Assembly: GCA_003697105.1 (NCBI GenBank)
Contig: RFFQ01000015.1
Location: 1 to 41,131, forward strand
Reading direction: 5' to 3'
Source of the DNA: Gemmatimonadota bacterium
GTDB taxonomy: Bacteria; 4572-55; J002
DNA length: 41,131 nucleotides
The notes under the pieces were generated by a model, which was not told the origin of the DNA, did not search any database, and was given only the letters and a program-made list of their open reading frames with translations. This document shows positions 8,345 to 39,796 of this stretch, piece after piece (the first letter of the stretch is position 1; every line of letters starts with the position of its first letter). The translations under genes were made by a program, and so were the position numbers.

Positions 8345-9240
8345 TGTTCATCCTGTAAAATATGGAGCAAGGTTTGAGCGTTGGTACGCATAATTTCGGC
8401 ATACGTCTGGTAACCCGGCACCCCACCGATGGGGTCAATCTCGATAATGGGAATTCCCGTTGCTTCTGAAACAACGGCAGCTACCCGGTCTGGTGTTTGG
8501 GGTTGGCTGAGAATCGCCCTGACATGCTCCTGAGCGCATAACTTTATGATCCGTTGGATTTCACGAGGTGTCGATTCTTTACCGGGGATGGTCTCAATCA
8601 CGCCGGCAATCTTAATCCCGTAACGAACCAAAAAATAGTGAAAAAACGGATGGGACATGATCACCGTCTGTCCTTTCAGCGGCGCCAATTGCCGGGCGAT
8701 TTCATGATGCAAGGAATCCAGTTCTGCCGCAAATTTGCCGGCGTTGACGGTGTACGTCCCGCAACCGGGGGGGTCGATTTCACAGAGGGTTGCCACCAAC
8801 TGGGGTAACATCGCTTTGACCGTCAGCGGGTCTGTCCAAAAATGCGGGTCGATGTCATCGGAAAAAGCGTGTTGGTGAGCATCAGGAGCGTCATGATGGT
8901 GATCCCCTAAAAGCGGGAGAAGGGCATCCGGTGGCACCATTTCCAACAGTTCATAGCGTTCGACGGTCGGGAAACGGGCAACCCATTCATCCAGTTGAGG
9001 CGAACCGTAAAAAACCGCTGTGGAGGATTCCGCAAAACGTAAATCCGAAGGGCGAAGTTCATACGTATGAGGGGAGGTGCCCGGCGGTAACAATCGATGC
9101 ACCGTGGCACGTTCTCCAACCACCTGTTGCAGTATGGTGGCAAAAGGATGAATGGAAGTCATGTACGCCGGTTCGGCGTGAAGCGGCAGAGTGCGAACCA
9201 AACTGACTACCAGAATCAGGTAAATTGCAATGGATTTCAT
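8341..9240 (-). CDS. znuA: Periplasmic zinc-binding protein ZnuA
   Basis: 299 residues from ATG 9240, preceded by AAGGAAGG and opening on a signal peptide (MKSIAIYLILVVSLVRTLPLHA). The cluster A-I substrate-binding fold is shown by the metal ligands His31 (SIHPF), His58 (TSPHTYEL), His133 (DPHFW) and a late acidic ligand in EIDPIGG. A histidine-rich acidic loop at about 112-126 (six His) precedes His133; such loops are typical of zinc rather than manganese binders. It captures zinc in the periplasm for ZnuBC. It begins one base after the regulator gene ends. Confidence 0.92.
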   Translation of the reverse strand: MKSIAIYLILVVSLVRTLPLHAEPAYMTSIHPFATILQQVVGERATVHRLLPPGTSPHTYELRPSDLRFAESSTAVFYGSPQLDEWVARFPTVERYELLEMVPPDALLPLLGDHHHDAPDAHQHAFSDDIDPHFWTDPLTVKAMLPQLVATLCEIDPPGCGTYTVNAGKFAAELDSLHHEIARQLAPLKGQTVIMSHPFFHYFLVRYGIKIAGVIETIPGKESTPREIQRIIKLCAQEHVRAILSQPQTPDRVAAVVSEATGIPIIEIDPIGGVPGYQTYAEIMRTNAQTLLHILQDEQ

Positions 9241-9241
9241 G

Positions 9242-9667
9242 TCAGAGACCTTCCTTACATGTTTTGCAGAGACCATCCACAATGATGGTGGTAGCATACC
9301 AGACATAACCCTCCGGCAGATGAAGGGGTGGCAAATCAACGGAATTTAAACAAAAAATGTGCCCACAATGGACGCACTTAAAGTGAACATGCTCATCCGC
9401 GTGAGATTCCACATTACATTTTTGCAGATCGCACAAAGCATAGCGAGCCACACCCGCATCATCGGTCACTTTGTGAATTAGCCCTTTTTCCAGAAAGGTA
9501 CGCAAGGTGCGGTAGATGGTCACGCGGTCGTAATCATGACCCAACTGGCGTTCAATATCCGCATGGGAAAGCGCAAATCCCGCCCGGCTAAAGATACTTA
9601 AAATCAATCGCCGGACTGCTGTTACACGAATCTGGTGCTGGTGTAGCGTCTGTTCTAACAAAGTCAT
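9242..9667 (-). CDS. zur: Fur-family zinc uptake regulator
   Basis: 141 residues from ATG 9667, where Fur homology starts (MTLLEQTLHQHQIRVTAVRR). The open frame continues upstream to 9829, but that stretch crosses the promoter and operator. The winged-helix recognition region is YDRVTIYRTLRTFLEKGL (46-63). Metal sites include the His cluster at 89-95 and two CxxC pairs, C98/C101 and C134/C137, expected to hold structural zinc. It is the first gene of the znuACB operon, which makes Zur more likely than Fur, PerR or Mur. The ribosome site is weak. An exact palindrome overlaps its promoter, so it probably represses its own operon when zinc is plentiful. Confidence 0.87.
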   Translation of the reverse strand: MTLLEQTLHQHQIRVTAVRRLILSIFSRAGFALSHADIERQLGHDYDRVTIYRTLRTFLEKGLIHKVTDDAGVARYALCDLQKCNVESHADEHVHFKCVHCGHIFCLNSVDLPPLHLPEGYVWYATTIIVDGLCKTCKEGL

Positions 9668-9720
9668 GGCAGGGTGCAGTGAACGGTTAGAAGTTTGCAG
9701 TGTACAGTAAATGGGTGGGG

Positions 9721-9749
9721 AATATACGTTTTTTGCAACTAAGTTGCAA
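9721..9749 (-). promoter_or_regulatory. Promoter of the zur-znuACB operon
   Basis: On the minus strand TTGCAA (9749-9744), a 17-base spacer and TATATT (9726-9721). The predicted start of transcription is near 9714, leaving a leader of roughly 47 bases before zur. The -35 hexamer is one arm of the palindromic operator. Confidence 0.75.
9733..9749. promoter_or_regulatory. Putative Zur box
   Basis: TTGCAACTAAGTTGCAA is a perfect inverted repeat: two 8-base arms around a single central A. The size and symmetry match Fur-family operators. It covers the -35 and most of the spacer of the zur promoter, which is the position of a repressor site. I see no second full copy in the window. Confidence 0.78.
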
Positions 9750-9864
9750 TATAAATTTGAACGTTCGGATTTATGATTGCGATTGACCGGCTTTGATTGT
9801 AGATTAGGAATTACCGGATCAATACTCACTATTTGTCACTCAAATACGGTATAAGGAGCGATTG

Positions 9865-19037: not shown

Positions 19038-20882
19038 TTAACGCAATATCCCTAATTTCCCACGCTGCACCATTGATCCCGCCTGAAAAGTGTACAAATA
19101 CACGCCGGCAGAAACGACATTTCCGGCATTATTCCGCCCATCCCATAAAATTTGATCGGCCCCCGCCGGACGTTGTTCATCCAGCACCTTACAGACCAGA
19201 TCACCGGCAAGATCGTATATCGTAATACGCACCGTTTGAGGCTGATTAAGAGTATAACGGAAGGTCACACTGCGTTCTCGCGGATGAAACGGATTGGGCG
19301 CAACGATTACCTCATTCGCTTCGGTTTGGATCGATCCGGCATAAAAGGGTTTTGCCTCAGCGGCATCACTGCCGGTGTTTGCCAGTACGACGGTATAGAA
19401 CCGGTCAGATAGTGGAGTTTCGATCATGTACGTGCCATTGCGCAGATTTTCTGCCGGAATTTCCGTCAACACTTCAAGGACATGTCCATCGGTTTGGTCT
19501 TCTTCCAACACCCATGCCTTAAAATCCATTGGATTCGCGGCGATTGCCAATTTGAGCGGTTCATTGGGTTGCGGGGTAAACCGGAAAAATTTAGCGGCAA
19601 AGGGCGCAATGGTTTGGGACGCCACGGTGAGGGTATCTGGTAGAATCGGGTCAACACCATCGCGGACATCCCCTCCATAAGAGCCGGCAACATCGTAATC
19701 TGCCATATTAAACTGGTACAGGCTGTAGCGCCCATCGTATTGCTCATCGGGTAAATCGGCATAATTGGCAATGACCCAATCTTGGAAGATATCTTCCACC
19801 CGATCCGCATAACCGAGGGTTTGCAAGGCTTCATTCATACTTTCCAAACCATTTCGGGGCGATTGGATGCAAGCGCGCACAAACGCATTTCCGCCGTAAC
19901 GCTCTGTAAAATATGCCATCCACGAAAGCACCTTGCCGTAATCGGCAAATGAAAATTCCCAGCCGGTGAGGGCAAGACCGGGATCATCAAAAAAGCCCAT
20001 AATCTGACCCGGATTCGTGCTGTTATCATCACCGGCAAAGTAGGCGGTCGGGTCGATGTAACCGGCGTTATACATGGCGTGCATGGAAAACGCCTCATCC
20101 AGCCAGACCTCCTCATCCTGGTCCAATCCCCAATGGATTAAGTGCTGGAATTCGTGTGCTAACACATCGGCATAATCTCCCCGCGTAATTAAGAAACTGT
20201 CCAAAGTGATCATCTCTACTTGATTACTGTAAAACCAGCCCAATCCGGTGAGTACCGCGCCGTTATGTTCAAAATTTTCGTACTGGTCAACCGGATAAAA
20301 ATAGCCGGCTACAATGCCCTTTTCGGGGCGGGAATGGTCATGAATATCTTCAATCAAAATGTAGATACGCGGGTCCCCGTCGATTTCATCCGGCGGCGTG
20401 CCGAAAGCCTCCTCATTCAACTGGTAAATTCCACGGTCGGGGTCTCCAGCCGTCGTTTTTTCAAATAGGTTGATCACCCCAATGGCGTAAAATTCCTGGT
20501 CGTATTGGGGAATGTGCGGGTTGTCATCCTCAATAAACACGTAGCAATGTTCGCCAATGGCGGCACAGGTGGCATGAACCAGCCGTTGCGAATCCGGCCG
20601 TCGTTGCTGGGCATCAATCACGAGACTCCAAAATGACCGTTTATCCCCCACCCGGATGGAATCCGCCGCGATGTGAACGTTTTTTGTTTTATGTTGAACA
20701 CCGGTGGCCGGGTACGGTTTTGTTTTAGGATAGCGTTCCGCCAAATCGTGCCGGATTTCAGACATAAACGGGTGCAGATCGATTCTTTTGACCGCAGGTT
20801 GGGCTTGCAGATGGCTGCCGAAACTGATCAGGTAAACCACGGTCAATAAGCGGACAATCCTGGTTGGTATCATGTTTGTCAT
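19038..20882 (-). CDS. Secreted HExxH zinc metalloprotease with C-terminal sorting domain
   Basis: 614 residues. A signal peptide is at 1-28 (ending SHLQAQ). The catalytic region has H243-E-F-Q-H247 in LAHEFQHLIHW, followed by EVWLDEAFS, where Glu263 is a good candidate for the third zinc ligand. This resembles M30/hyicolysin-type metalloproteases, but the subfamily is inferred. The C-terminal 80 residues form a FlgD-like Ig module (VRITIYDLAGDLVCKV ... WDGRNNAGNVVSAGVYLYTF), the type used as a type IX secretion signal. It is the last gene of a five-gene run headed by the porV-like gene. Two starts, ATG 20882 and 20873, are possible; neither has a strong ribosome site. Confidence 0.85.
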   Translation of the reverse strand: MTNMIPTRIVRLLTVVYLISFGSHLQAQPAVKRIDLHPFMSEIRHDLAERYPKTKPYPATGVQHKTKNVHIAADSIRVGDKRSFWSLVIDAQQRRPDSQRLVHATCAAIGEHCYVFIEDDNPHIPQYDQEFYAIGVINLFEKTTAGDPDRGIYQLNEEAFGTPPDEIDGDPRIYILIEDIHDHSRPEKGIVAGYFYPVDQYENFEHNGAVLTGLGWFYSNQVEMITLDSFLITRGDYADVLAHEFQHLIHWGLDQDEEVWLDEAFSMHAMYNAGYIDPTAYFAGDDNSTNPGQIMGFFDDPGLALTGWEFSFADYGKVLSWMAYFTERYGGNAFVRACIQSPRNGLESMNEALQTLGYADRVEDIFQDWVIANYADLPDEQYDGRYSLYQFNMADYDVAGSYGGDVRDGVDPILPDTLTVASQTIAPFAAKFFRFTPQPNEPLKLAIAANPMDFKAWVLEEDQTDGHVLEVLTEIPAENLRNGTYMIETPLSDRFYTVVLANTGSDAAEAKPFYAGSIQTEANEVIVAPNPFHPRERSVTFRYTLNQPQTVRITIYDLAGDLVCKVLDEQRPAGADQILWDGRNNAGNVVSAGVYLYTFQAGSMVQRGKLGILR

Positions 20883-20896
20883 GGTTCAACAATGGG

Positions 20897-21523
20897 TTAA
20901 AAGCGGTAGGTCAACCGGGTTTGGATGGTGCTTTCCAACACGTCGGAGTTCACATGGAGGCTAAAGTGTCGTTGGCGTTTGTTGTAAATTCGGGCGGCGA
21001 TGATGGCATCTAGCACACTCACGGCATGGGTGATAAAAATCGCACTTTTGAATTGGTCGCGTACTTTCTTAGTATCGATATAATCCCCGTGTGCCTCACG
21101 ATAAACCTGCCATTCACGGGGATGTTCTGTAAAATCCCAACCGGGACCTTCAGGAGGCGTACCCCGTTTTTGGCGATACTCATCTATGGTCGAATAGCGG
21201 GAAAGGGCAAGATAATAGTCATCGGAATAGGTATCTGGGGGAATATCCCCGTATAAGTAGGCATATTCCTGATATTTTTCTTCTAACGCATTGACCCGGC
21301 TCGACTTGTAGAGATATGACCCCCAGACATAGGCGCCTAAACCCAGCATGGCGATACCGTTTTTAGTCGCACCGGTATAAAATTCGCCACTGCCGGGCAA
21401 AATTGCGGACATAAGGGCGGCTTTCCAGACCGGTTTGGGCGATGCCGTTTCTGCGGTGGTGGGGATCGCCCATGTCAGCAATAACCCCATTACGATCAGG
21501 TAAATCACTATTTTATGTGTCAT
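20897..21523 (-). CDS. DUF5683-like exported membrane protein, paralogue 1
   Basis: 208 residues: signal peptide at 1-24, then a KAALMSAILPGSGEFYTG block at about 34-51 and a hydrophobic helix (LGLGAYVWGSYLY). The middle is hydrophilic and Tyr-rich. A near-C-terminal block reads AIFITHAVSVLDAIIAARIYNK, and the tail forms predicted beta strands ending in F, as in a barrel strand. The PGxGxxY block resembles the DUF5683 family of FCB bacteria. Two further paralogues lie directly upstream. Function is unknown; location is probably the cell envelope. Confidence 0.72.
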   Translation of the reverse strand: MTHKIVIYLIVMGLLLTWAIPTTAETASPKPVWKAALMSAILPGSGEFYTGATKNGIAMLGLGAYVWGSYLYKSSRVNALEEKYQEYAYLYGDIPPDTYSDDYYLALSRYSTIDEYRQKRGTPPEGPGWDFTEHPREWQVYREAHGDYIDTKKVRDQFKSAIFITHAVSVLDAIIAARIYNKRQRHFSLHVNSDVLESTIQTRLTYRF

Positions 21524-21565
21524 GATGCTATCTTTTTACGGGGAGAAGTTTCACTTAATTTATTT

Positions 21566-22288
21566 TTAGTAAGTATGTATCCAACTCAATTGAACGCCCG
21601 GGTTACGAATATCTTCATTTAAGTGTAGATGGAGTTCGCTGGTGGCTTCTCGACGGTGGCGCGCCAGACGTGCCACATCGACTACTGCCAGTAAACGATT
21701 GATCAGTGCCGCCCCAATCATATACCCTGCCCAACGTTCGTTTTTCCATGCCTCATCTTTGAGGCGGTCATAGGTGTACCATTTTTCTTTGCTTGCCCAC
21801 ATCCACCCTTCGGCTTCGCTATAGAGATGATCCGGTGCGCTGTCACTCAAGCGGGCATCCCGCCGTTGCGCTTCATTATAATCATCGCTGGTGTAATAAT
21901 CCTGTAAATTACTCCAATAATCACTCGACTTTCCGGCAGGGTCCACGCCGGCATGAACGGCGGCAAACAACTTGTATTCATCTTCGCGCCAGTGTTGCCG
22001 GGTTTTGAACCATGTTCTAGCAGACCAGACGGCGGTTTCCGTACCGAAAAAGAAGACGGCATGACGCCGAGAACCCAAATAAAGTTGCCCCCACCCCGGC
22101 AAAATGGCGGACATCACCATCGCTATTTTGCCAGATCGATGGGTCGCCGAAGCGTCTAGTTGGTGTGCGTCTGAAAACATCTGGGAATCGCCGGCGGGTA
22201 ATGTGAGTGGCGATAATTCCGACGATTGGGTTGCACCGGATTGGCTCAGCCCCAATAGGAAGATCAGAGTCACAAAAAAAGGTTTCAT
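21566..22288 (-). CDS. DUF5683-like exported membrane protein, paralogue 2
   Basis: 240 residues. It has a signal peptide (1-20, ending SGATQS), the shared MVMSAILPGWGQLYLG block, a hydrophobic FFFGTETAVW segment, a long polar centre and a C-terminal MIGAALINRLLAVVDVARLARH block. This copy is the most canonical at the PGWGQxY motif but has lost the Asp-Ala and Asn-Lys pair kept in the other two near the C-terminus. Spacing is 42 bases to paralogue 1 and 14 bases to paralogue 3. Confidence 0.7.
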   Translation of the reverse strand: MKPFFVTLIFLLGLSQSGATQSSELSPLTLPAGDSQMFSDAHQLDASATHRSGKIAMVMSAILPGWGQLYLGSRRHAVFFFGTETAVWSARTWFKTRQHWREDEYKLFAAVHAGVDPAGKSSDYWSNLQDYYTSDDYNEAQRRDARLSDSAPDHLYSEAEGWMWASKEKWYTYDRLKDEAWKNERWAGYMIGAALINRLLAVVDVARLARHRREATSELHLHLNEDIRNPGVQLSWIHTY

Positions 22289-22302
22289 GTATGTGCCCGG
22301 TG

Positions 22303-23403
22303 TTAATAGGATTTAATCAGTGCCAATTTCGCTTCCGGTTCGCCACCTCGCCAATCGACTGAAAACTGCCAATCGAGGGGTTTGGGCTGTGAACGTTGCA
22401 TTTCCGCTAGATTTTTGTTGTATTTTTTCGTCAACCGGATAGCATCAATTGTGGCGGCGACATGGTTGACCAAAACGACACCCATTCCCAAATTTGCCTT
22501 ATCATATTCGGCTTCGGCATCATCACGCATCCGGTTGTACGTTGCCCGATTTGGGGAAGCATCATCACCAAGCACCGCTTCCGGGAAACCGGCATCATGT
22601 GGGCTCCACCCGTAAGGATGCTCGCGTTCCCAAATAAACGCCGTATAGGGGTTGCCCTGATCCGCAGTTTGATACCAATCATCCCAACCCAGAATATATT
22701 TATCATATTTACCAATATCTTCATAAAATTCATGATCGTACCGGGGATATTCATTGACTCCCGGCGTAAATACCCCGTTCTCATAGGTGCTCGTATCAAA
22801 ATAGAACTCTTCAGGGGGCGACCCCACCCCATCCCAACTAAATTCATTTGCCAGTAAAACAAAATGGGTACGACTGGGCACAAAACGATAGATTTCTTCG
22901 TCGGGGTCCCACACAGCCGAAACATAGATGTTCGTTCTGCCGTAACGGGGGTCGGTTTCATCCTCCAAAAAGACCGGATCGGCAAGCGCCACGTTCATCA
23001 AGTCATTCCGAACTTCAATGTACTGGTCAACGCTGTAGTGTTCATTCGCAAAGGCTTTGTATTCATCGGTTTTATCATCACCGTTGCTATTGAAGACAAA
23101 GTAGGTGGTCCAGGCGGCAATTTCTACCGCCGTGAAGATCAGCCCGTACTTTTCCCCCGCATACAAATGCCCCGACCCCGGCACCAATGCCGACATCAAC
23201 AGCGCTTTTCCCACGGATTTCTCGCCGGTGTTGGCGCTCATGTTCGCAGAATTTCCGTCGTCATCGCCTTGTAACAGCGCAAGGTATTCTGGCGTCTCCA
23301 CCGGATTAAGCAGATTATTCTCCAGATTTAAACCGGATTCCGCCCACAGCGCGGTGGGGCAAATCCACAGGCTGATGATTAACAGGATTAACACATTACG
23401 CAT
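22303..23403 (-). CDS. DUF5683-like exported membrane protein, paralogue 3 (long form)
   Basis: 366 residues, with AAGGAG before ATG 23403. Signal peptide 1-21. The shared KALLMSALVPGSGHLYAG block is near 65-82, followed by a hydrophobic segment (FTAVEIAAWTTYFVF). An insertion of roughly 130 acidic, Tyr- and Asp-rich residues (about 130-290) is absent from the two shorter paralogues. The C-terminal block is VVLVNHVAATIDAIRLTKKYNK, closely matching paralogue 1. The insertion may form an extra soluble domain; its role is unknown. Confidence 0.72.
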   Translation of the reverse strand: MRNVLILLIISLWICPTALWAESGLNLENNLLNPVETPEYLALLQGDDDGNSANMSANTGEKSVGKALLMSALVPGSGHLYAGEKYGLIFTAVEIAAWTTYFVFNSNGDDKTDEYKAFANEHYSVDQYIEVRNDLMNVALADPVFLEDETDPRYGRTNIYVSAVWDPDEEIYRFVPSRTHFVLLANEFSWDGVGSPPEEFYFDTSTYENGVFTPGVNEYPRYDHEFYEDIGKYDKYILGWDDWYQTADQGNPYTAFIWEREHPYGWSPHDAGFPEAVLGDDASPNRATYNRMRDDAEAEYDKANLGMGVVLVNHVAATIDAIRLTKKYNKNLAEMQRSQPKPLDWQFSVDWRGGEPEAKLALIKSY

Positions 23404-23436
23404 CAGAACGGCTCCTTCAATTTAAGTCGATAAAAT

Positions 23437-26361
23437 TTATTTGATGATGGCAATTTTATGGAATTTCACATCCGACCCTTGCGCGGACACCGCTTCCAAC
23501 CGGCAGATATAAACTCCAGTTGCGATATTACTGATGTCCCACGGGGTCTGGTGCATGGGCGCATAGCCCTGATCGGTCAGTTCCGCGATTAAATCTCCGG
23601 CAAGATCGAAAATGTTGATGTGGATGGTCGCATCGGTGGTGAGTTGGTAGTAGATGCGGGTCACCCCGATTTGTGTTGCCGGATTGGGATAGGTATAGAG
23701 GGCTTCAATGGAGAGGGCTTCCGCTGGCGTTTGAGCACCCTGATCGGGTTGGACAACACCCGTCCGCTGCCAACCACCCCGGTAACCAGACCACATTACC
23801 TTATCGGCACTGGAAAGCATCCCATCCAGTAGTTGAGGGATAAATGATGCCCCGTTAATACTAATTTCAAGGTTGGAATCCTGGTCAACATCCACCAATT
23901 CAATGGACTGGGTATTCTGCGGGATCGCCAGCGGGAATCCCGCCATACGTGAGCCATCCGCCTGCCAGCCGTACAGATTTCCATCATTCATCGCCGCAAC
24001 AACATCCATTTCATCATCACCATCCCGATCAAAAATCAGCATATTTTCCGTTTTATGTGGCATAATTTCCGTTGAATCCATAACAACTTGGGGGAAACCG
24101 GCATACGGTGTGCCGTGGGCAGTCCATTTGGAGAGTGTTTGTCCGCTCTCATTAACCCATAGGATCGGGTTTCCCCGGGCATCGTATCCAACGGCAAGAC
24201 CCTGTATATCGGCAGTATGCGTCCGGAACGCGGCAACAAGCTGCCCCTCCAACGTGATCGAATACAGATGCTGGTTAACACCCACAAAGCAGTATTGAGG
24301 TGTCATGACAACATCTGCCTTTCGGATGGGTTCTTCCAGCAACGGCAGTTCCCACCGGATTCGATGATCGGCATCCAAAACGGTAAGATAAGATTGATCC
24401 GCTTCAGAGGAAAGAATGGCTAATAGATTCTGATCAAACGCCAATTGTTCAATTTGCCGCCGGGTTCGATAAACTTCAATTGCCGAATGTGAGGGTACAG
24501 AAACGCTCACCAACCGTGTTTCTATGCCATTTGTTTCCCCGAAAAGTACCGCGGCGTTGGATTCTGCATGATTTCCCGGATACCACAGGGGTTGGTGCGA
24601 GATCGTCCATCCCGAGGCGGCGGTGTAAAACACCAATTGATCCGGTTGAGGCACACTACCGCGTGAAATTTGGCATAATACACTTTGATTCGACAAATTT
24701 TGGGCGGCAAAAACTACCGTCTCAAGCTCTCCATGCGTCGAACTTGCCACACCTAATGGCGCAAACATCAAAGCGTGTAACTCCGTGGAAATCGTTTCAA
24801 GCGGGTCCAGACTCGAAGGCATGATGGCAATGTCCAGCAACCCATCGGCTCCAACCGGAAAAAAGAGGGTTCGATCCCCATCAAAAATGGCATACTCAGA
24901 GGGCGGCAATTCACGGGGAAGGTTCAACCACAAGCCCCGATTCACTGTCAGGCTCATTTCAGCCCCCGGTTCACTGATGTTGAAGATGGTAATCCCCGTA
25001 GTTGCCCCGCCGTTACTGCGGCTGTTCGGGGTGGAATCGTGGTCGAAACGGTCATTATTTCCGGCAAAAAAGGCATCTTTGTAGAACCCGTAGGCGAAGT
25101 AATCACCTTCAAAATCATCAAAATCTTGAATACCATCCGCTTCTTCCAAATCGATACCTTTACGGTGCGGATCAACATTGACGCGGTTATTTGCCAGATT
25201 TGCGGCAATTACATTCTCATCGATATGCCAAATTAGCAGCCCGGAGCCGGGAATGCTGTAATCGTACTCACCGGCATCAAAAAAGCCGTTGCCGTTGGCA
25301 TCCCGCTGGCGATTTTCAATCAGGTAATATTCGCGGTCGGTGATGGGTATTTTCAGCACATCCGGGTACTGTTCTGCCGCCCGAAGGGTGTAAGTTTGCT
25401 CACCCACATCAGCCACTTGCGGCGTGACCCAGCCGAGTTGTACCCGGCACCACGCTGAAAGAAACGCCGGACTAAAGCCTTTGTAATTCCACTGTCCAAA
25501 ATCGAGTAAATCCCACATCCCGACGCGAGTATCGCCGGTTTCGGTATCGTACAGATCAGGCAAACCCAACTGCCGTGCAAAAATTGCCGCCCAGTTACCC
25601 AGATTATCAATGATGATATTATCTTGGGAGTTGGTTTCTGCCACGATCCCGCCGCCGAAAATCGGAACACCATCGTCTGTTAGCAGATGATCCGTCCCTA
25701 GCACGTGTAGCAGGTCACCGGAAGAAATAAAGGCGGAAGGAATATCGTTGGGAGTATCTCCCATGATGTCAGTCGCGACGTTGCTGCCGGCATGGACAAT
25801 GAGGTAGGCGGTGCGTTCAGGAGCCAGATTAAAATCCATCGCTGGATCGGCATCGAGGGCAACAATCGCATCCTGAAAGAGTTCAACAAGGCGAGTAGGG
25901 TTGGGGTCATCTTCTGCCTGTTCCGCATAGTATGCCATCGGTTGTGGGAGGGTATAGGGGTTACCGGAACGCGGGAAAAGGTTATCTTCCAACAGGAATT
26001 CAGGAGCGTTTAACTGCAGTTGACCGTAAGAAACGGCATCATAATAACTTGCTAACTGATGAAGCTGACGAGCGAACCACGCCTGATCGTGGTCTTCATG
26101 GCTATCCGGGTACATCAGCATTTTGCCGGTGCCGGTCGTGGTACTGTCTTCATCGGCAGGGAAATCCACCAACACCGTAACCACACGCACCACACCGGTG
26201 GACGGAAAACCGGTCATACTGGATCGCGTACCGTGCTGTTGGTACGTGGTTTTAAGATGTGATCCCAGTTGCTGTAATTCTACATCGCTCCAATCCGTTT
26301 GGGCATATAGCCACCCAGCAAAACTTAACAATCCAATAATACATCCAGCAAAATAGCGCAT
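23437..26361 (-). CDS. M6-type metalloprotease homologue lacking HExxH, with sorting domain
   Basis: 974 residues. Signal peptide at 1-20. The region 50-400 looks like an M6 (immune inhibitor A-like) peptidase: LVDFPADE, YYDAVSYGQL, LGLPDLYDTETGDTRVGMWDLL, and a late GLLIWHIDENV. However, the segment where HEFGH belongs reads A259-I-F-A-R263, directly before QLGLPDLYD, so both zinc histidines and the catalytic Glu are gone. A calcium-type loop DANGNGFFDAGEYD follows near 355. The central region has weak FG-GAP-like Asp-rich loops (FDRDGDDEMDVV, DVDQDSNLEI). The C-terminus is a FlgD-like module (IHINIFDLAGDLIAEL ... GVYICRLEA). It is probably secreted but not a zinc protease. Confidence 0.82.
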   Translation of the reverse strand: MRYFAGCIIGLLSFAGWLYAQTDWSDVELQQLGSHLKTTYQQHGTRSSMTGFPSTGVVRVVTVLVDFPADEDSTTTGTGKMLMYPDSHEDHDQAWFARQLHQLASYYDAVSYGQLQLNAPEFLLEDNLFPRSGNPYTLPQPMAYYAEQAEDDPNPTRLVELFQDAIVALDADPAMDFNLAPERTAYLIVHAGSNVATDIMGDTPNDIPSAFISSGDLLHVLGTDHLLTDDGVPIFGGGIVAETNSQDNIIIDNLGNWAAIFARQLGLPDLYDTETGDTRVGMWDLLDFGQWNYKGFSPAFLSAWCRVQLGWVTPQVADVGEQTYTLRAAEQYPDVLKIPITDREYYLIENRQRDANGNGFFDAGEYDYSIPGSGLLIWHIDENVIAANLANNRVNVDPHRKGIDLEEADGIQDFDDFEGDYFAYGFYKDAFFAGNNDRFDHDSTPNSRSNGGATTGITIFNISEPGAEMSLTVNRGLWLNLPRELPPSEYAIFDGDRTLFFPVGADGLLDIAIMPSSLDPLETISTELHALMFAPLGVASSTHGELETVVFAAQNLSNQSVLCQISRGSVPQPDQLVFYTAASGWTISHQPLWYPGNHAESNAAVLFGETNGIETRLVSVSVPSHSAIEVYRTRRQIEQLAFDQNLLAILSSEADQSYLTVLDADHRIRWELPLLEEPIRKADVVMTPQYCFVGVNQHLYSITLEGQLVAAFRTHTADIQGLAVGYDARGNPILWVNESGQTLSKWTAHGTPYAGFPQVVMDSTEIMPHKTENMLIFDRDGDDEMDVVAAMNDGNLYGWQADGSRMAGFPLAIPQNTQSIELVDVDQDSNLEISINGASFIPQLLDGMLSSADKVMWSGYRGGWQRTGVVQPDQGAQTPAEALSIEALYTYPNPATQIGVTRIYYQLTTDATIHINIFDLAGDLIAELTDQGYAPMHQTPWDISNIATGVYICRLEAVSAQGSDVKFHKIAIIK

Positions 26362-26430
26362 CCAAACGTCCCTAAAACAAACTGAAAAGTAAAAATTAAA
26401 CGTTAGAAGTTCGGGAGTACGTGCCTGCCT

Positions 26431-26458
26431 CTAACTCCGAATCCCTAACTCCGGATCA
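26431..26458. repeat. Two-copy 14-bp tandem repeat
   Basis: Two adjacent copies of CTAACTCCGRATCM with period 14, in the gap between the porV-like gene and the M6-type gene and reaching into the porV stop. The role is unknown and it may be a decayed intergenic repeat. Confidence 0.5.
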
Positions 26459-27547
26459 GAAATCGATAGCTAAAGAGTAGAAACGGTTGTAATCGGAAAG
26501 GTCACCACCGGGGAACATCCCGTAATCAATCTCAACGGTGTAATTGGCGAACTCCAACGCTACACCTCCACCAAACGAGGGACCGTCAATGTAGGAATCT
26601 GGACTGTTTGCCGCGCCGGGGGATTCCCGTTCGCGGGTGTAACCAACTCGCAGACCGCCCCCAAAACCAAAGCCGGTGGTTTCGTTCATGGGTGTGGCAT
26701 ACCAGACTTCTGCGCCAAAGCCCTGCGTGGACTCCTTCAACTCTTCGCTAATACCGTCATTGGTGCGGATCATTACTTTGTCATACTCGGCAGTGCCAGT
26801 AAAGCGCACGGCGCCGACTCGTTTGGTATATGCCAGACCCAACCGCAACGTCCGTGGAATCGGGTCGGCTTGGTCATCATTAATATACGTAATGTCTGGA
26901 CCAAAGTTTTGCAGATTCATCCCCAATTTCAAACCGGTCACCACTGGCACGTTGTAGAGCAGACCGATGTCAGTTGCCCATGTCATTCCGGTACCGGATT
27001 TATCTTGCTCCGTTTGACCGGTACCTTCATCTGCCAGATGGCTATAGATGAATTTTATGTTGAGACCCAGCGCCAGCGAAGGCATCAACTGCGTGCCGTA
27101 ACTGAAGGTAACGGCGCCATCATAGGCTTTGTCATAACCAAGCTCTTGCGCGTTTTCATCGGTGCGCAGGTATTCACCCATATCAAAGTAGCTCAACGAA
27201 AGTCCAAAATTCCCCCAATCTTCGAACTGTTGGGAATAGGTGAAATAGTAATATGCCAGTCCAAAATCCAATTCCGGTAGCCAATCGATACGAGTGAATG
27301 CTAATTGCCGGTCTTCGGTCATGTAGGATAGCGCGGCAGGATTCCACCACGTGGCGTAGGCATCACTGGTGGATGAGGTATTATCACGCCAGAAATCCGC
27401 CACGACGGATTGTGCCATCCCGGCACTGCGCGCACTGGGATTAAACGCCAAAAACGGCACGGCAGATGTTTCCGCCTGCACCACCGGAACCAACGCGCCG
27501 AACACAATCAGCAGAGTTAGCGAAACGATAATGAAAAAACGACTCAT
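26456..27547 (-). CDS. PorV/PorQ-family outer-membrane protein
   Basis: 363 residues with AAAGGAGG before ATG 27547. A signal peptide (1-25, ending VVQA) is followed by FLAFNPSARSAGMAQS, matching the PorV N-terminal pattern (hydrophobic, then PxARxxGMG/A), and by WWNPAAL. The remainder is a 14-strand-like FadL-type barrel pattern ending in a strand with terminal Phe (YSLAIDF). PorV shuttles sorting-domain proteins at the type IX secretion pore. Two proteins with such domains lie downstream on the same strand, which supports the role. The 94-base gap to the next gene has no terminator that I can see. It may be a PorV-like relative rather than the main PorV. Confidence 0.8.
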   Translation of the reverse strand: MSRFFIIVSLTLLIVFGALVPVVQAETSAVPFLAFNPSARSAGMAQSVVADFWRDNTSSTSDAYATWWNPAALSYMTEDRQLAFTRIDWLPELDFGLAYYYFTYSQQFEDWGNFGLSLSYFDMGEYLRTDENAQELGYDKAYDGAVTFSYGTQLMPSLALGLNIKFIYSHLADEGTGQTEQDKSGTGMTWATDIGLLYNVPVVTGLKLGMNLQNFGPDITYINDDQADPIPRTLRLGLAYTKRVGAVRFTGTAEYDKVMIRTNDGISEELKESTQGFGAEVWYATPMNETTGFGFGGGLRVGYTRERESPGAANSPDSYIDGPSFGGGVALEFANYTVEIDYGMFPGGDLSDYNRFYSLAIDF

Positions 27548-27755
27548 AACAAAACATCCTCCTTTAAAGATGCTAAAAATGAAAATACACCAAAATAGGT
27601 CAATAGCGCATGCGGTTCTTTCCGCACGATATATGCCATTTTGATCAACTTTGGTAGCTGTATTGATAATACATTCTGTTTCAATGGGTTAACTGATTTT
27701 AATGGCGGGACTGGACGGCTTCGCTAGGGGTTGGGAATTGTATATATTTTGCAAC

Positions 27756-28343
27756 TTACGCGGAGCGATGGTATAATTGATGGTGTTCAATGTAAGCACG
27801 CACGGTATCCGGCACAACATAGCGGATGCTTTGACCCCGTTGTACCCGTTCCCGAATCTGGGTGGAAGAGATCGCCACCTCTCGCATGGGGACAAACGTT
27901 ACCCGCCCGGTATAGCGAGCTTTAACGGCATCCAGATCAACTCCGGCGCGCGTAGTGGCTACTACGTGGCAGGCATTCAGAATGGCATCCGGGTCTTTCC
28001 ACGTATGCAGATTAGCGATAGCGTCGCCACCCACAATCCAATGTAGCTCTTGGGCATTGTATATCTTGCGGAAATGGCGAACGGTATCAATGGTGTAGGA
28101 TTTTCCGGTACGGCGGCATTCCACATCACTCACCGCAAACGCCGGATTATCCGCAACGGCAAGACGTACCATTTCCAGCCGGTGATGCACATCAAGGACC
28201 GGTTGTTTTGCTTTGTGGGGGGGATTCGCGGAAGGAATAAACAAAATTTTGGCTAAACCACAAGCCTCTTGGACATCCTGCGCTAAAATCAGATGCCCCA
28301 GATGTGGCGGGTTGAATGTACCCCCAAACAGTCCGATTTTCAT
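27756..28343 (-). CDS. nadD: Nicotinate-nucleotide adenylyltransferase
   Basis: 195 residues from ATG 28343, where GAGG precedes the start; an ATG five codons earlier gives an unneeded leader. The signature GGTFNPPHLGH (7-17) and the late ISSTQIRERV motif (SxTxxR type) identify a nucleotidyltransferase of the NadD family. Length is normal. It joins ATP and nicotinate mononucleotide to form deamido-NAD in the cytoplasm. It sits between the terminated FG-GAP gene and the porV-like gene. Confidence 0.95.
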   Translation of the reverse strand: MKIGLFGGTFNPPHLGHLILAQDVQEACGLAKILFIPSANPPHKAKQPVLDVHHRLEMVRLAVADNPAFAVSDVECRRTGKSYTIDTVRHFRKIYNAQELHWIVGGDAIANLHTWKDPDAILNACHVVATTRAGVDLDAVKARYTGRVTFVPMREVAISSTQIRERVQRGQSIRYVVPDTVRAYIEHHQLYHRSA

Positions 28344-28420
28344 CTTCTTGCCTCGCATTTTGATCGAGGTAAAACATACCGGATTTACGGAAAAATGTCA
28401 ATTCTGAAATAAAGAGAACT

Positions 28421-28456
28421 AAAAAAGCCTCACGAGTCCCATTTGACCCGTGAGGC
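28421..28456 (-). terminator. Terminator after the FG-GAP giant gene
   Basis: A stem GCCTCACG/CGTGAGGC (28427-28434 with 28449-28456) extended by inner pairs is followed on the minus strand by TTTTTT. It lies 27 bases after the stop at 28483. Confidence 0.9.
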
Positions 28457-28482
28457 GTTGACTGAGACAAGGTTACTTGGGA

Positions 28483-31400
28483 TTACTTGAGTAAAATCAT
28501 CCGTTTCACATCCTGAAACGTACCGGTTTGCAGGACATAGAGGTACATGCCAGACCGGACGTGCTGCCCGCGTTCGTCCGTGCCATCCCACACCACCGAG
28601 TAACGACCCGGTATCTGCTCCTGATCCGGCGCGATCAGTTGCCGGATCAACCGCCCGGAAACATCGTAAATGTTCAAAGTGACGGTGCTTTCCTGTGGTA
28701 AGTCAAACCGGATAGTGGTGCGCGGATTAAACGGGTTCGGGTAATTTTGATGCAGAACTGGGGCACCCGGCACCACCAGCTCGTTTTCAAACGGATCGAT
28801 TTCCACATCGGTCAAATAAAATCGATTTTCCCACCACGTGATCCGGTTGCCGGTAGTGGATGTGGCAACAATATCCATATCCCGGTCTCGGTCTAGATCA
28901 ACGAGATGGACGGCTTTGATACCTTCAAAAGTTTTGGTCACAATTTGCCGTGTGAGCAGGAATTGATCGGGGGAGACACGCTCGTATTCCCACCAATAAA
29001 TACCGTTGCTATCCGGCACGGTGCCGATCAAATCCTGATCGTAATCCCGATCCACATCGCCTAATAGCAGGTCAACTGCCCGGACGTCATCGATGAAGGT
29101 GCGACCAAATGTTTGGTCACCGTCATTTTCCCACAGCGCCAATTGGAAATCAGTAGCACCGGTAACCAAATCCATATCGCCATCCGTATCCCAATCTTTA
29201 GTGATGATGCTCGATCCACCTTGGAGGTTGGTGGCAATGGGGGTATTGAGGAAATTTCCATCTCCGATATTTTCCCACCAGCTAAATCTACCGGTTTCAC
29301 CGATGGTAATCAATACATCGGGGTCGCCGTCACTATCCACATCGCTCACCTGAACCGTATTGACACCTTCAGCTTCGATAACAATTGTTCCCGCGAGATC
29401 AAAGTTCGCATTGCCGTCATTTGCCCACCACGTGACCGTACCGGCAGTGGCGGCAGCAAGCACAAGGTCAGAATCCCCGTCACCATCCATGTCCGCCAGC
29501 GTGAAATCGGTGACACCACCTGCATCGGTCACAACCGAATGCTCGGTGAATGTCCCGTTGCCGTCATTTTGCCACCAACTAATGGCATCTTCGCCGGCAA
29601 TTGCGGCGATGATGTCCACGCCGGGGGTGTTGTCTAGGTTGAGTACTTTCATTTCAATGATGCTGTCAATACCGGTTGCAATGAGATGGGCTTCAAATAC
29701 CTCATCGCCGGTATTTTGCCACCAACTGATGCCGCCCACGCCGCCACTGATCAGATCGACTTCACCGTCACGGTTCACATCGGCAGAGGCAAGGGTTGCG
29801 GTTTGAGTGGTATTGGTGATCAAATCCATCCGGTGCCAGCGGTAGCTCGTCGCGCCAACCAGTAACACCGGCATTTCGGGTTCATCGGGGTCATCACTGA
29901 TGATGGTCAATGTTTCTTCGACATATCCTTCTGTCGTCGGGATAAAACTAACCAAAATGGTATCTTGTTCGCCCGGATAGAGCGTTAGGGGGGTAAAATT
30001 GGCGGCAAACGGTTCATTGACCTGAATACCGGTGATGTTCAGGGGTTCGGTACCGGCGTTCCCCACAAAAAAGGCGGCAACAAGCCCTTCACCTAAATTC
30101 ACTTCCCCAAAGTTGATGGTCTGCGGGGCACGGATAATGTTCGGTACTTCTGGATTTAAATCGTTTTTCCACATGACCAAATTATTGCCGTCATAGAGTG
30201 CGGCGAGCACATCCCAATCGCCATCTTGATCCATATCCTCTACCTGCACGGATTGGGGACCGGAGAGTGCGCTGGAAATGGATTTATAGGTAAAATTCTG
30301 AGCACCATCATTTTGCCACCAGCCAATCGAACGTCCAATGTATGCCACCCCGATAATGTCTTTAAAGCCGTCATTATCCAAATCCTTGACGGCGACATCG
30401 TAAGCGCCGTCATAGGCGGGGGTATCTAGGGTATGCCGGGTCATCATGCCGCTACCGTCATTTTCCCACCAGAGGAAGCGGTCGGTCTGGTAAGCGGCAC
30501 CTAGCAGGTCGGCATCACCGTCATTATCCACATCGTTGATGGTAATGGCTTGCAAGCCACCCACGCCGGTATCCAGTTCTTGTCGTGAAAAACTACCATA
30601 GCCATTACCAAACCACGCCACAAGATTATCATAACCCCGAGAAACACTGATAATGTCCATGCGCCCATCCCCGTTCAGGTCGGTAATTTTAGCATCAATG
30701 CAGTTTAATTCTGAGGTGGACAGTACATGCTTGCGATGCCGTCCATCGGGGAGGCGTTCCCACCATGCCAAAGTGTGGGTGTTGGTAGAAGTGGAGACCA
30801 CATCCATATCCCCATCCCCGTCCAGATCACCGGTATCGATAGCTTGCGAGTCCTCAAACCGCCCATCGAGGGTATTTTGAACGTAACTGAGGGTAAATGG
30901 CACATCTTCCCATAAGATCACATCATTAGAGATATAGCTCACGCCGTAAATATCCAAAAAGCCATCTTTATCGGCATCCGCAATTTTCAGGTCTGCCACA
31001 TCCCACGCTTCCAGAAAGGGGGGTAATGGATACGGTGGGGGTGGAAACGGTAAGGGGAAGGGGTCAAACGCTTCCCCCGTACCATCGTTGATCCAGCCGG
31101 TAACGCCGTAAAATCCACCAACAATGACATCGGGAAAACCATCCCACGTAAAATCATCGGTGCGGACGGCGCGGGCACGCAGCAGATCATTTTCGGTCAG
31201 ATAGATTTCTTCCCAATCCGGTTCACCGTCATTGCCGTTTCCGATCAGTAAAATCTGCGTCGGGCTATCATCTTCATCGTTCGAGATCAAGGTGATCTGG
31301 CCGGTATAGTCAATCTCTTCTTCGGGGGCGAGGGTAACGGCGAGGGCTACATTATTACCGGGAGCAACCGTAATCGGGACTTCCGCTTCTAAGGTGAAGG

Positions 31401-32673
31401 GTTCGTCGATGGTCACTTCACTGATGATCAAATCCGCATAGCCCCGGTTGGTGATAGTAAATTCCAAGGTTTCGGATTCTCCCAGATAGACCTGTCCATA
31501 ATCCAACACCAACGGCGAGACCACCATACTTGGGATCGGGGGGTTATAACTGCTTTCCCACCACGTCACTTGACCCGCCGTGCCAATGCCGACAATATCC
31601 GGATCGCCATCGCGGTCTATATCCGCGGCAGTGACTTTGCGGGCTTCGGTAAAGGTATTGGAGAGGACGATTTCATTGAAGGTCATATCGCCGTTGTTTT
31701 CCCACCAGCGGATGGTGTTTTGGTTGTATCCAGCTGCGACGATATCCCAATCGCTATCGCCATCCAGGTCCACACTGTAAACAGAGGTTGCCCCCAGCAG
31801 GCTATCGGTGATAGTAAATTCGTCAAAGCGTTCGGTACCATCATTTCGCCACCACCGAATTTCGTTATCGTCGAAGGCGGTTGCGATGACGTCCAGATCG
31901 GTATCACCGTCTAGGTCGAGGGCTTGATATTCCCGAACACCCCGAAACAGGGTCTCAATAGAGAGTTCCCGAAACGTGTTATCACCTTCGTTTCGCCACC
32001 ATTTAATGTCATTGAGGGAGCCCGCCGCCGCTCCAAGAATATCGACCAACCCATCCCGATTGAAGTCCATTGCCGTGACTTGTTCCACACTGTTGAAGTT
32101 TAGGTCAATTTCAACGGGGTAAAAGTTTTCAATGCCCAAATTGACCCACCAGATAATATCCACGACACCACTATCTTCGTTTTGGGCGCCAGTCAGGATG
32201 TCCATGTCCCCATCTAAATCAAGGTCAACTGGAAAGACCGTGCGAGCACTGTACAGGGTATCCGAGATAACCGCCGGGGTGGTGAATGCACCATTACCAA
32301 AATTTCGCCACCAGAGGACCGTATTGGCATCGCGAACCGCGGCTAATAAATCAGGGTCACCATCATAATCCATATCGGCGACAGCAATATCAGCGACTCC
32401 CGCCAGATTTTCCGCGACGATGCTGGCAGTAAAATTGGCATCACCGTCGTTTTCCAACCAGATAATTTGGTTAGCATCTTGGGCAGCGACCAGTAGATCA
32501 ACATCACCATCAATATCGACATCCACAGTAAGAACATCCACAGCACCTACCAGACCGGTGGTGATGGGATGTTCTGTAAATTCAATCTGTGCGTAAATCG
32601 GCAAAGTGAGACCGCTCCATAGAGCTAGGAAAAATATCAGACCGCAATGAATACGAAAATTCGTATTATCCAT
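28483..32673 (-). CDS. Giant secreted FG-GAP protein: three 7-blade propellers, two Ig-like linkers, sorting domain
   Basis: 1396 residues; AGGAGG eight bases before ATG 32673; signal peptide ending near residue 28 (LPIYAQ). I count 21 repeats, each with a calcium-type DxDxDGDxD loop followed by a WW-x-N-x-G strand. They fall into three groups of seven, separated by two choice-of-anchor/ASH-like Ig domains (starting at LDYGQVYLGES and INFGEVNLGEG). The last 90 residues are a FlgD-like sorting module with NYPNPFNPRTTIRF and NIYDVSGRLIRQL. It should be exported, probably by the type IX route, and be a calcium-stabilised surface or secreted protein. Unit 9 and a few others have degenerate strands. 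Ligand unknown. Confidence 0.9.
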   Translation of the reverse strand: MDNTNFRIHCGLIFFLALWSGLTLPIYAQIEFTEHPITTGLVGAVDVLTVDVDIDGDVDLLVAAQDANQIIWLENDGDANFTASIVAENLAGVADIAVADMDYDGDPDLLAAVRDANTVLWWRNFGNGAFTTPAVISDTLYSARTVFPVDLDLDGDMDILTGAQNEDSGVVDIIWWVNLGIENFYPVEIDLNFNSVEQVTAMDFNRDGLVDILGAAAGSLNDIKWWRNEGDNTFRELSIETLFRGVREYQALDLDGDTDLDVIATAFDDNEIRWWRNDGTERFDEFTITDSLLGATSVYSVDLDGDSDWDIVAAGYNQNTIRWWENNGDMTFNEIVLSNTFTEARKVTAADIDRDGDPDIVGIGTAGQVTWWESSYNPPIPSMVVSPLVLDYGQVYLGESETLEFTITNRGYADLIISEVTIDEPFTLEAEVPITVAPGNNVALAVTLAPEEEIDYTGQITLISNDEDDSPTQILLIGNGNDGEPDWEEIYLTENDLLRARAVRTDDFTWDGFPDVIVGGFYGVTGWINDGTGEAFDPFPLPFPPPPYPLPPFLEAWDVADLKIADADKDGFLDIYGVSYISNDVILWEDVPFTLSYVQNTLDGRFEDSQAIDTGDLDGDGDMDVVSTSTNTHTLAWWERLPDGRHRKHVLSTSELNCIDAKITDLNGDGRMDIISVSRGYDNLVAWFGNGYGSFSRQELDTGVGGLQAITINDVDNDGDADLLGAAYQTDRFLWWENDGSGMMTRHTLDTPAYDGAYDVAVKDLDNDGFKDIIGVAYIGRSIGWWQNDGAQNFTYKSISSALSGPQSVQVEDMDQDGDWDVLAALYDGNNLVMWKNDLNPEVPNIIRAPQTINFGEVNLGEGLVAAFFVGNAGTEPLNITGIQVNEPFAANFTPLTLYPGEQDTILVSFIPTTEGYVEETLTIISDDPDEPEMPVLLVGATSYRWHRMDLITNTTQTATLASADVNRDGEVDLISGGVGGISWWQNTGDEVFEAHLIATGIDSIIEMKVLNLDNTPGVDIIAAIAGEDAISWWQNDGNGTFTEHSVVTDAGGVTDFTLADMDGDGDSDLVLAAATAGTVTWWANDGNANFDLAGTIVIEAEGVNTVQVSDVDSDGDPDVLITIGETGRFSWWENIGDGNFLNTPIATNLQGGSSIITKDWDTDGDMDLVTGATDFQLALWENDGDQTFGRTFIDDVRAVDLLLGDVDRDYDQDLIGTVPDSNGIYWWEYERVSPDQFLLTRQIVTKTFEGIKAVHLVDLDRDRDMDIVATSTTGNRITWWENRFYLTDVEIDPFENELVVPGAPVLHQNYPNPFNPRTTIRFDLPQESTVTLNIYDVSGRLIRQLIAPDQEQIPGRYSVVWDGTDERGQHVRSGMYLYVLQTGTFQDVKRMILLK

Positions 32674-38598: not shown

Positions 38599-38604
38599 CC
38601 CGAC

Positions 38605-38640
38605 AAAAAAGCGCTTCTCATTGCTGGGAAGCGCTTTTTT
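38605..38640. terminator. Bidirectional terminator
   Basis: GCGCTTC and GAAGCGC arms are flanked by A6 on the left and T6 on the right. It serves the TraB/GumN gene (plus) and the thioredoxin-TPR gene (minus). Confidence 0.9.
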
Positions 38641-38692
38641 AGATTTAATGACACCGTTCGGGATATTCCCCCCCAACGGTTTGACCGAGCGG

Positions 38693-39745
38693 CTACTTTT
38701 CCTCATCCATCTGCTCAAATTTCGCCAACTGTTTTTTATAATAGTCATCATCCGGTTTGATGTGAATGGCTTTGTTGATAACGGCAATCGCGCTGGCTTT
38801 ATCCCCTAATTTATAATGCACTTCTGCTACGGTATCCAAAATCATTGCCTGATCTTCTGAACCCACTTCGGACAGCTCCGCCGCTTTTTGGGCATACGCC
38901 AGTGCTTTTTCAAGTTTCATTTCCAGTTCGGTCATACGCCAAGCGAATGAATTCAACGCTTGGGGGTCGTCGTTAAACCGGTCTGCCATAGCTTCCAGCA
39001 CCGCGGCTTCTTTTTCGGGTTCTTCCTGACGGGCGTAGTAACGCGCCAGAGCCGTATAGCTTTGTTGGGCAATGTCATCATTGGCGGTTTTTGCCAGTTG
39101 TTCCAATCGGGCAGTTTTGCCGCTGGTCTCCAGTTCAATTGTACCAATGTAATAGGCACTTGTCTGGTGCTCTGCTGTATGGAAGGGTGTGGTTTGAATT
39201 ACTGTTTTCAAGTATGGGAGTGCCGCTTCCTGGTCCCCTCGGTAAAAATATTTTTGACCGATCTGAAACTTCAATTCCGCACTCTGGGGATCCGCTTTGA
39301 GTTTCTCTTTCAGATAAGCCAACGTTCCAATGCCATTGAGATAATCGTTCAATGTTTTCAGATACGCGTCTTTCGTGGAAAAGCCCATAATCCGGTCGAT
39401 TTCCTCCTTGCTGGAGACATCCACCAAAATAACCTGCGGGATCGATTTAATCCCAAATGTTTTCACAAGTGCCTTGTTTTCTGGATGATCGATATTATAC
39501 TGCCCGCTGACTACAATCGAATTTACGGAACTGACCTCATCGGATTTGAATACAGCGGCATCCAGCCGCTTGCAGGGAACTCACCAGTCAGCATAAAAAT
39601 CGACCAACACCATCGATTTATTTTGGGCTTTCGCCATGTCAATCAACTCATCCAGTGATTTGCCCTTCTGAAAATCCAACGCGGCAAATGCGCTAGAGAC
39701 CCCCATCCACAAGGTCAGTGCGATAACACTAAAAATCAGACGCAT
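38693..39745 (-). CDS. Probable selenoprotein: secreted thioredoxin-TPR fusion with UVPC active site
   Basis: Read from ATG 39745 (perfect AGGAGG ahead), the frame gives 350 residues with one internal TGA at codon 55 (39583-39581). The N-terminus is a signal peptide (MRLIFSVIALTLWMGVSSAFA). The context is VLVDFYADW-TGA-VPCKRLD, i.e. a thioredoxin motif WCxPCK in which the first Cys is TGA. Cys58 is the partner, and P103 in KSIPQV fits the cis-proline. Residues from about 130 to 350 form TPR-type helices (AELKFQIGQKYFYRG, EVHYKLGDKASAIAV). Downstream of the TGA is a SECIS-like hairpin. Other genes here use TGA as a normal stop, so global recoding does not explain it. Alternatives are a point mutation or sequencing error. 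Expected role: periplasmic redox or scaffold protein. Confidence 0.85.
39551..39574 (-). promoter_or_regulatory. Putative bacterial SECIS element
   Basis: On the mRNA, starting 7 bases after the TGA: TGC, bulged A, AGCGGC, loop TGGAT, GCCGCT, GTA. The core stem is six perfect pairs, extended by three weaker pairs. The apical loop opens 17 bases after the TGA and holds GG at positions 2-3. This fits the spacing and loop-G rule for SelB-binding bacterial SECIS hairpins. Confidence 0.75.
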
Positions 39746-39796
39746 AAATATCCTCCTAAAAAAAGTGGGTGACCCGCTAACATGAAGTGTGCGGTA

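Follow-up and report, generated by a model that had tools for sequence, protein, structure and literature searches.

Selenoproteins with a thioredoxin fold and selenocysteine (Sec) in the first position of a UxxC motif have been described before. The Sec thioredoxin (PF00085) and the Trx-like 2 or 'thiol:disulfide interchange protein' class (PF13098, cd02953) share both the fold and the Sec position with the protein presented here (PMC13188914 Table 1, PMC2398784). These listed proteins are described by their thioredoxin domain, with no TPR region or lipoprotein anchor mentioned, and it is this description that sets them apart. The class cd02953 is DsbD-gamma-like, as is the catalytic domain discussed below. 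Marine metagenome reads of the thioredoxin-TPR family may have been counted earlier as Trx-like, with the TPR part unseen (PMC2398784).

CnoX (YbbN) likewise consists of a thioredoxin domain followed by a C-terminal TPR domain. However, it is cytoplasmic, carries SxxC in E. coli and no Sec, has another TPR arrangement and has GroEL as its partner. The C-terminal (gamma) domain of DsbD is among the best matches of the catalytic domain (profile E ~1e-23 in the PDB, TM 0.7 of target). Unlike DsbD, the protein described here has no membrane domain, possesses a TPR tail and has Sec in place of Cys; the NCBIfam DsbD model scores only 62.6 bits against a cut-off of 330, with the match confined to the C-terminal domain. 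The rhodanese/DsbD-like selenoprotein TsoB (NF045694) shares the DsbD-gamma-like stretch, and all 13 A2 members match it weakly, but the score (56.4 vs. a cut-off of 805 bits), the architecture and the Sec motif (UxxxxU) differ. Finally, exported thioredoxins of Bacteroidota (L020-L024) have a signal peptide, a thioredoxin domain and a long C-terminal tail, with ~20% identity over the length; their motif, on the contrary, is CxxC, without Sec.

No thioredoxin-TPR entry is present among the 119 prokaryotic selenoprotein families and subfamilies of the 2026 inventory (PMC13188914 Table 1). The window protein scores below the cut-off of every NCBIfam model, and literature searches on selenoproteins with TPR, Marinimicrobia or Fidelibacterota yielded no description of a thioredoxin-TPR selenoprotein. 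The chemistry of UxxC thioredoxin folds is known; the architecture, the lineage and the repeated Sec/Cys exchange are new.

Gene structure and neighborhood

The window, i.e., the whole 41,131-nt stretch of DNA analyzed, carries the gene at 38693-39745. These coordinates had been given correctly in the preliminary description, and the strand, unstated there, is the minus strand. The following features were recognized:

38693..39745, minus strand: complete coding sequence of the predicted selenoprotein (350 residues, Sec at 55), from ATG at 39745 to TAG at 38693
39752..39757, minus strand: ribosome-binding site AGGAGG, 6 nt upstream of the ATG, by direct reading
39680..39745, minus strand: predicted signal peptide of ~22 residues without a lipobox, judged by eye
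39350..39625, minus strand: thioredoxin domain PF00085, residues 41-132, closest to the DsbD C-terminal domain in sequence and fold
39581..39583, minus strand: putative Sec codon TGA, residue 55, first position of W-U-V-P-C-K
39572..39574, minus strand: TGC codon of the resolving cysteine (Cys58), invariant across the aligned homologues
39551..39574, minus strand: putative SECIS hairpin, lower stem UGCA/UGUA, upper stem GCGGC/GCCGC (or AGCGGC/GCCGCU)
39564-39560, minus strand: apical loop UGGAU of this hairpin
39437..39439, minus strand: Pro103, a proline invariant in the homologue alignment, where the thioredoxin fold usually has its cis-proline
38696..39322, minus strand: all-helical TPR region, residues 142-350 (Pfam TPR matches and model, pLDDT >90 over most of it)
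38604..38641, no strand assigned: terminator candidate, a hairpin flanked on either side by T runs (AAAAAAGCGCTTC...GAAGCGCTTTTTT), by direct reading; the pattern scan did not report it

Behind AGGAGG and the ATG, the N-terminus is hydrophobic (MRLIFSVIALTLWMGVSSAFA) and reads as a signal peptide. Pfam identifies the thioredoxin domain with 47.7 bits (gathering cut-off 23.5), as well as several TPR repeats. The frame earlier proposed to run from a signal peptide with AGGAGG to a TPR tail extends over 350 residues from ATG to TAG. Its single internal TGA is codon 55, in the context ...LVDFYADW-U-VPCKRLDA... (TGA translated as Sec), and the frame is unbroken for 295 codons beyond it. This agrees with the claim that the sole internal stop is a TGA at the first Cys of a WCxPCK motif, the second Cys (Cys58) being intact. 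Throughout the window, 22 in-frame TGAs have long open frames on either side, and a thioredoxin UxxC context is only encountered at 39583-39581.

The predicted structure (mean pLDDT 85, 8-row alignment) combines a thioredoxin fold with an all-helical superhelix behind it. The active-site region is among the weakest parts of the model, with a pLDDT <50 at residues 61-65.

Beyond the hairpin at 38604-38641 lies a convergent gene of the TraB/PrgY/GumN family, and the hairpin between the two genes is likely a two-way terminator. Elsewhere in the window, a zinc-type ABC transporter operon (ZnuA, ATPase and ABC-3 permease) with a Fur-family regulator is found at 6766-9829, where the listed frames of the regulator and ZnuA overlap by ~100 bases. 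A PorV-like protein and FlgD-Ig, CHU_C and Por_Secre_tail domains are present at 19038-32673; these domains suggest a type IX secretion system and a bacterium of the FCB group. No 16S gene is present in G000, G001, G192 or G193, and these T9SS-type proteins are the sole pointer to that group.

SECIS hairpin and selenocysteine machinery

A hairpin with GG in its loop, at the distance of a bacterial SECIS, had been noticed earlier. It is indeed present (AGCGGC-UGGAU-GCCGCU), with the loop beginning 16 nt past the UGA, and covariation backs it. The published bacterial SECIS model asks for a loop of 3-9 nt, an upper stem of 4-16 bp, a G in the first two loop positions, a spacing of 16-37 nt and an MFE <= -7.5 (PMC13188914). 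With its 5-nt loop UGGAU, a stem of 5-6 bp, a spacing of 16 and -13.1 kcal/mol, the hairpin of the window falls within these limits. This model, as coded here in its loose form, is nevertheless passed by 551 of the 1546 TGA triplets of the window (36%), which makes it a weak and too permissive test. The homologues share a narrower class, with a spacing of 16, a loop of 5 nt containing GG and at least 5 bp; of these 1546 triplets, only the TGA of codon 55 falls into it.

Taken alone and compared with dinucleotide shuffles, the hairpin is not significant (z -0.66), and for this reason covariation and synonymous recoding were used. Against synonymous recodings of the window gene, the folding z is -2.72, and a stem of equal length arises in 0.3% of the recodings (P 0.003). 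The mean folding z of all Sec genes in the same comparison is -1.64, vs. -0.16 for the Cys genes.

The main hairpin type, seen in 44 Sec genes, has a 5-nt loop, mostly UGGAU or UGGAC, closed by a stem. Its four core pairs are formed in all 44 genes, and base changes on both sides are observed at each of the six stem pairs, with CG, UA, AU and GU as pair types. The 44 genes of this alignment were picked for GG in the loop, with L137 added, a selection that does not in itself favor stem pairing. The covariation score amounts to 0.369, compared with 0.128 in shuffles (none of 500 as high), a test that kinship among the genes can inflate; slid registers give at most 0.101. Chance pairing fits neither the outcome of the slid registers nor the variety of pair types. 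The stem of this putative SECIS is conserved by compensatory change. The hairpin is real and fits the published model, but would be weak evidence if taken from the window gene alone.

Two other candidate hairpin types were encountered. The second, ACC-AGUU-GGU-like and further downstream of the UGA, occurs in eight genes (L089, L094, L096, L097, L101, L102, L105 and L114); the third, GCC-CGUGN-GGY, occurs in L056 and L058, with its loop farther from the UGA than the 16 nt of the main type. The covariation test covers the main type. L034 fits none of the three types well. Rfam SECIS_1 (RF00031) has no match in the window genome or in any of 14 control genomes, and no Rfam family matches the window DNA.

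The window genome (G000, 97% complete) encodes SelB (384 bits, cut-off 242), SelA (585 bits, cut-off 268) and a tRNA-Sec with anticodon UCA. Its SelD (L144, G000:C12:941-1864) contains one in-frame TGA in the motif AG-U-ASK and is itself a predicted selenoprotein. All the components of the machinery that the preliminary description proposed to look for (selA, selB, selD and selC) are thus accounted for. The SelD in the genome of L019 likewise has an in-frame TGA.

A genome-wide reassignment of TGA to another amino acid, e.g., Trp, would equally leave a TGA in frame. However, TGA serves as the ordinary stop of seven of the 22 other genes in the window, which indicates recoding and not a reassigned code. 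The corresponding homologue column, moreover, contains Cys and not Trp, and the genome has SelB and tRNA-Sec. Such a reassignment is considered to be of negligible probability.

Among the Sec-bearing genomes tested, SelA is above the cut-off in 34 of 37, and a full match is missing in G347, G280 and G382. A SelA fragment is located at a contig end in one of these three, and the other absences may be assembly gaps. SelA is also present in nine of the ten Cys-form genomes of Fidelibacterota tested; hence, its co-occurrence does not separate the Sec and Cys forms and only shows competence.

Homologues and Sec/Cys exchange

In 76 distinct homologues, the column of Sec55 holds TGA in 59 and Cys (TGC or TGT) in 17, and no other residue or stop in any of them, which answers the earlier suggestion to align homologues for Cys or TGA. 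The first search revealed a TGA in the same column of two Neomarinimicrobiota genomes (L018 and L019) and Cys in others; four genomes of other lineages (L030, L034, L056 and L058) have the TGA as well. When 199 genomes of Fidelibacterota, the phylum of L019, were searched with a profile, dozens of full-length copies came to light, mostly with a single TGA. In the homologue alignments, the second cysteine of the motif is invariant: the two redox residues, U55 (Cys or Sec) and C58, two apart, are conserved together with P103.

Most of the TGA homologues are proteins of Fidelibacterota (Neomarinimicrobiota) with a lipobox Cys, recognized by eye. They are predicted lipoproteins, and the window protein has a predicted plain signal peptide. 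An exported thioredoxin-TPR selenoprotein had been called unusual beforehand. The type is absent from the list of 119 families; far from being a one-off, it is found widely in Fidelibacterota, and the relatives are mostly predicted lipoproteins.

A pseudogene or a sequencing error, in which a Cys codon turned into TGA and left a start-truncated TPR protein, has to be weighed here. A mechanical ORF caller indeed yields only a 257-residue ORF with a GTG start, the truncated TPR protein that had been foreseen for automated annotation, and the species of the window is represented by a single assembly. Against this, 58 further distinct genes, spread over several lineages, have the same TGA, the 295 codons downstream are intact, the SECIS covaries and the Sec machinery is complete. 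A sequencing error is very unlikely, given that dozens of independent assemblies show this TGA, and the whole explanation, by decay or by error, has a very low probability. The TGA at 39583-39581 almost certainly inserts Sec, as judged from the sequence data. The machinery, the Sec/Cys column and the compensatory changes in the hairpin all bear out the proposal of a selenoprotein with Sec at the first active-site position, and the reading as a whole, an exported thioredoxin-TPR selenoprotein, is highly probable.

In a maximum-likelihood tree built quickly from 56 proteins, ten Sec/Cys changes are required, at least eight of which are forced by well-supported branches. Here, the window protein stands by itself on a long branch (1.4 changes per column) close to the base of the Fidelibacterota group. 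G001, its closest relative by class, has the Cys form. Both points weigh against the selenoprotein reading.

In Cys homologues, the hairpin is much weaker, with the exception of L126 (G338) and L132 (G333). These two Cys genes keep the main hairpin type, and in the tree, each has a Sec gene as its sister, a pattern expected after a change from Sec to Cys. They are likely recent Sec-to-Cys conversions with a putative SECIS remnant. A retained hairpin is the same kind of evidence as used in 2006, in a study that detected such changes in only four families, for the most part formate dehydrogenase and SelD (PMC1794560). A loss of the Sec machinery was considered as the origin of the Cys form in G333 and was not adopted: no SelA exceeds the cut-off in this genome, but a C-terminal SelB-like fragment persists, and the assembly is broken.

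Several further relatives were observed. The window genome also carries a shorter Cys relative (L065). A short thioredoxin-only protein of a Fidelibacterota genome (L139, G221:C16:52745-53146) has one in-frame TGA. At L019:3158-5049, the Sec gene lies 2 nt behind a gene for an FKBP-type peptidyl-prolyl isomerase, which suggests co-expression with this folding enzyme. In the few loci compared, no shared neighbor genes were found, and the neighboring genes do not point to a partner.

Putative function in the envelope

In the proposed mechanism, the hairpin directly after the UGA (39583-39581) would let SelB deliver the Sec-tRNA(UCA), and the ribosome would insert Sec and proceed to the TAG at 38693. 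The exported product would consist of a signal peptide, a thioredoxin domain with the U-x-x-C redox pair and a C-terminal TPR superhelix. In the envelope, the Sec55 selenolate would attack a substrate disulfide and Cys58 would resolve the mixed selenylsulfide, which makes the protein a disulfide reductase. A membrane reductase of the DsbD type would then return the oxidized protein to its reduced state, and substrate or partner proteins would be bound by the TPR part.

Genes for a full DsbD and for a short CcdA-like protein are present in the window genome. Together with the DsbD-gamma-like domain, they favor an exported disulfide reductase to which DsbD would supply electrons. The window protein is probably an exported thiol-disulfide reductase, the redox direction being the inferred part; for DsbD as its electron donor, the chances appear evenly balanced. 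A docking of substrate or partner proteins by the TPR part is a putative role.

Thioredoxin folds with CxxC serve isomerase, oxidase, selenium- or metal-handling and reductase roles alike. The protein could be a genuine selenoprotein acting as an isomerase, an oxidase or a selenium- or metal-handling protein, and PDI-type domains also match its thioredoxin domain. On the contrary, the domain closest to it is DsbD-gamma, which is reducing, and the genome has a DsbD; a role other than reductase is thus rather improbable.

The main functional rival to an exported reductase is an exported chaperedoxin. By analogy with CnoX, the TPR part would serve damaged envelope proteins as a holdase, with Sec protecting or reducing their cysteines. 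The order of the domains is that of CnoX (PMC8129009). Among the matches listed in the fold search, a thioredoxin domain with TPR occurs only in YbbN/CnoX of E. coli (3qou) and in its Salmonella homologue. In L019, the gene follows that of the FKBP-type folding enzyme by 2 nt. The overall fold of YbbN, however, is a poor match (TM 0.25, rmsd 23, 16% identity): the domains correspond, but their arrangement differs. Furthermore, Pfam TPR_20 (PF14561) stays below its cut-off (20.1 vs. 25 bits), and CnoX works with GroEL in the cytoplasm, whereas the window protein has an export signal. A chaperedoxin is considered unlikely, though a more serious candidate than the other roles named above.

For the family as a whole, only a tentative proposal can be made: Fidelibacterota and a few other lineages might possess an undescribed, envelope-anchored selenoprotein family of Sec-dependent exported chaperedoxins, with many Sec/Cys switches, including recent Sec-to-Cys changes in which the SECIS was kept.

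The thioredoxin-TPR architecture is an addition to the inventory of 119 families and occurs commonly in a widespread phylum whose members are mostly uncultured. Standard gene calling would end such genes at the TGA and miss their catalytic half. The family, which comprises 59 Sec and 17 Cys versions and has a SECIS that covaries, offers a good natural set for asking why, and in which direction, bacteria switch between Sec and Cys, and it also suits tests of SECIS rules outside E. coli. Moreover, it points to the use of selenium in the disulfide chemistry of the envelope.
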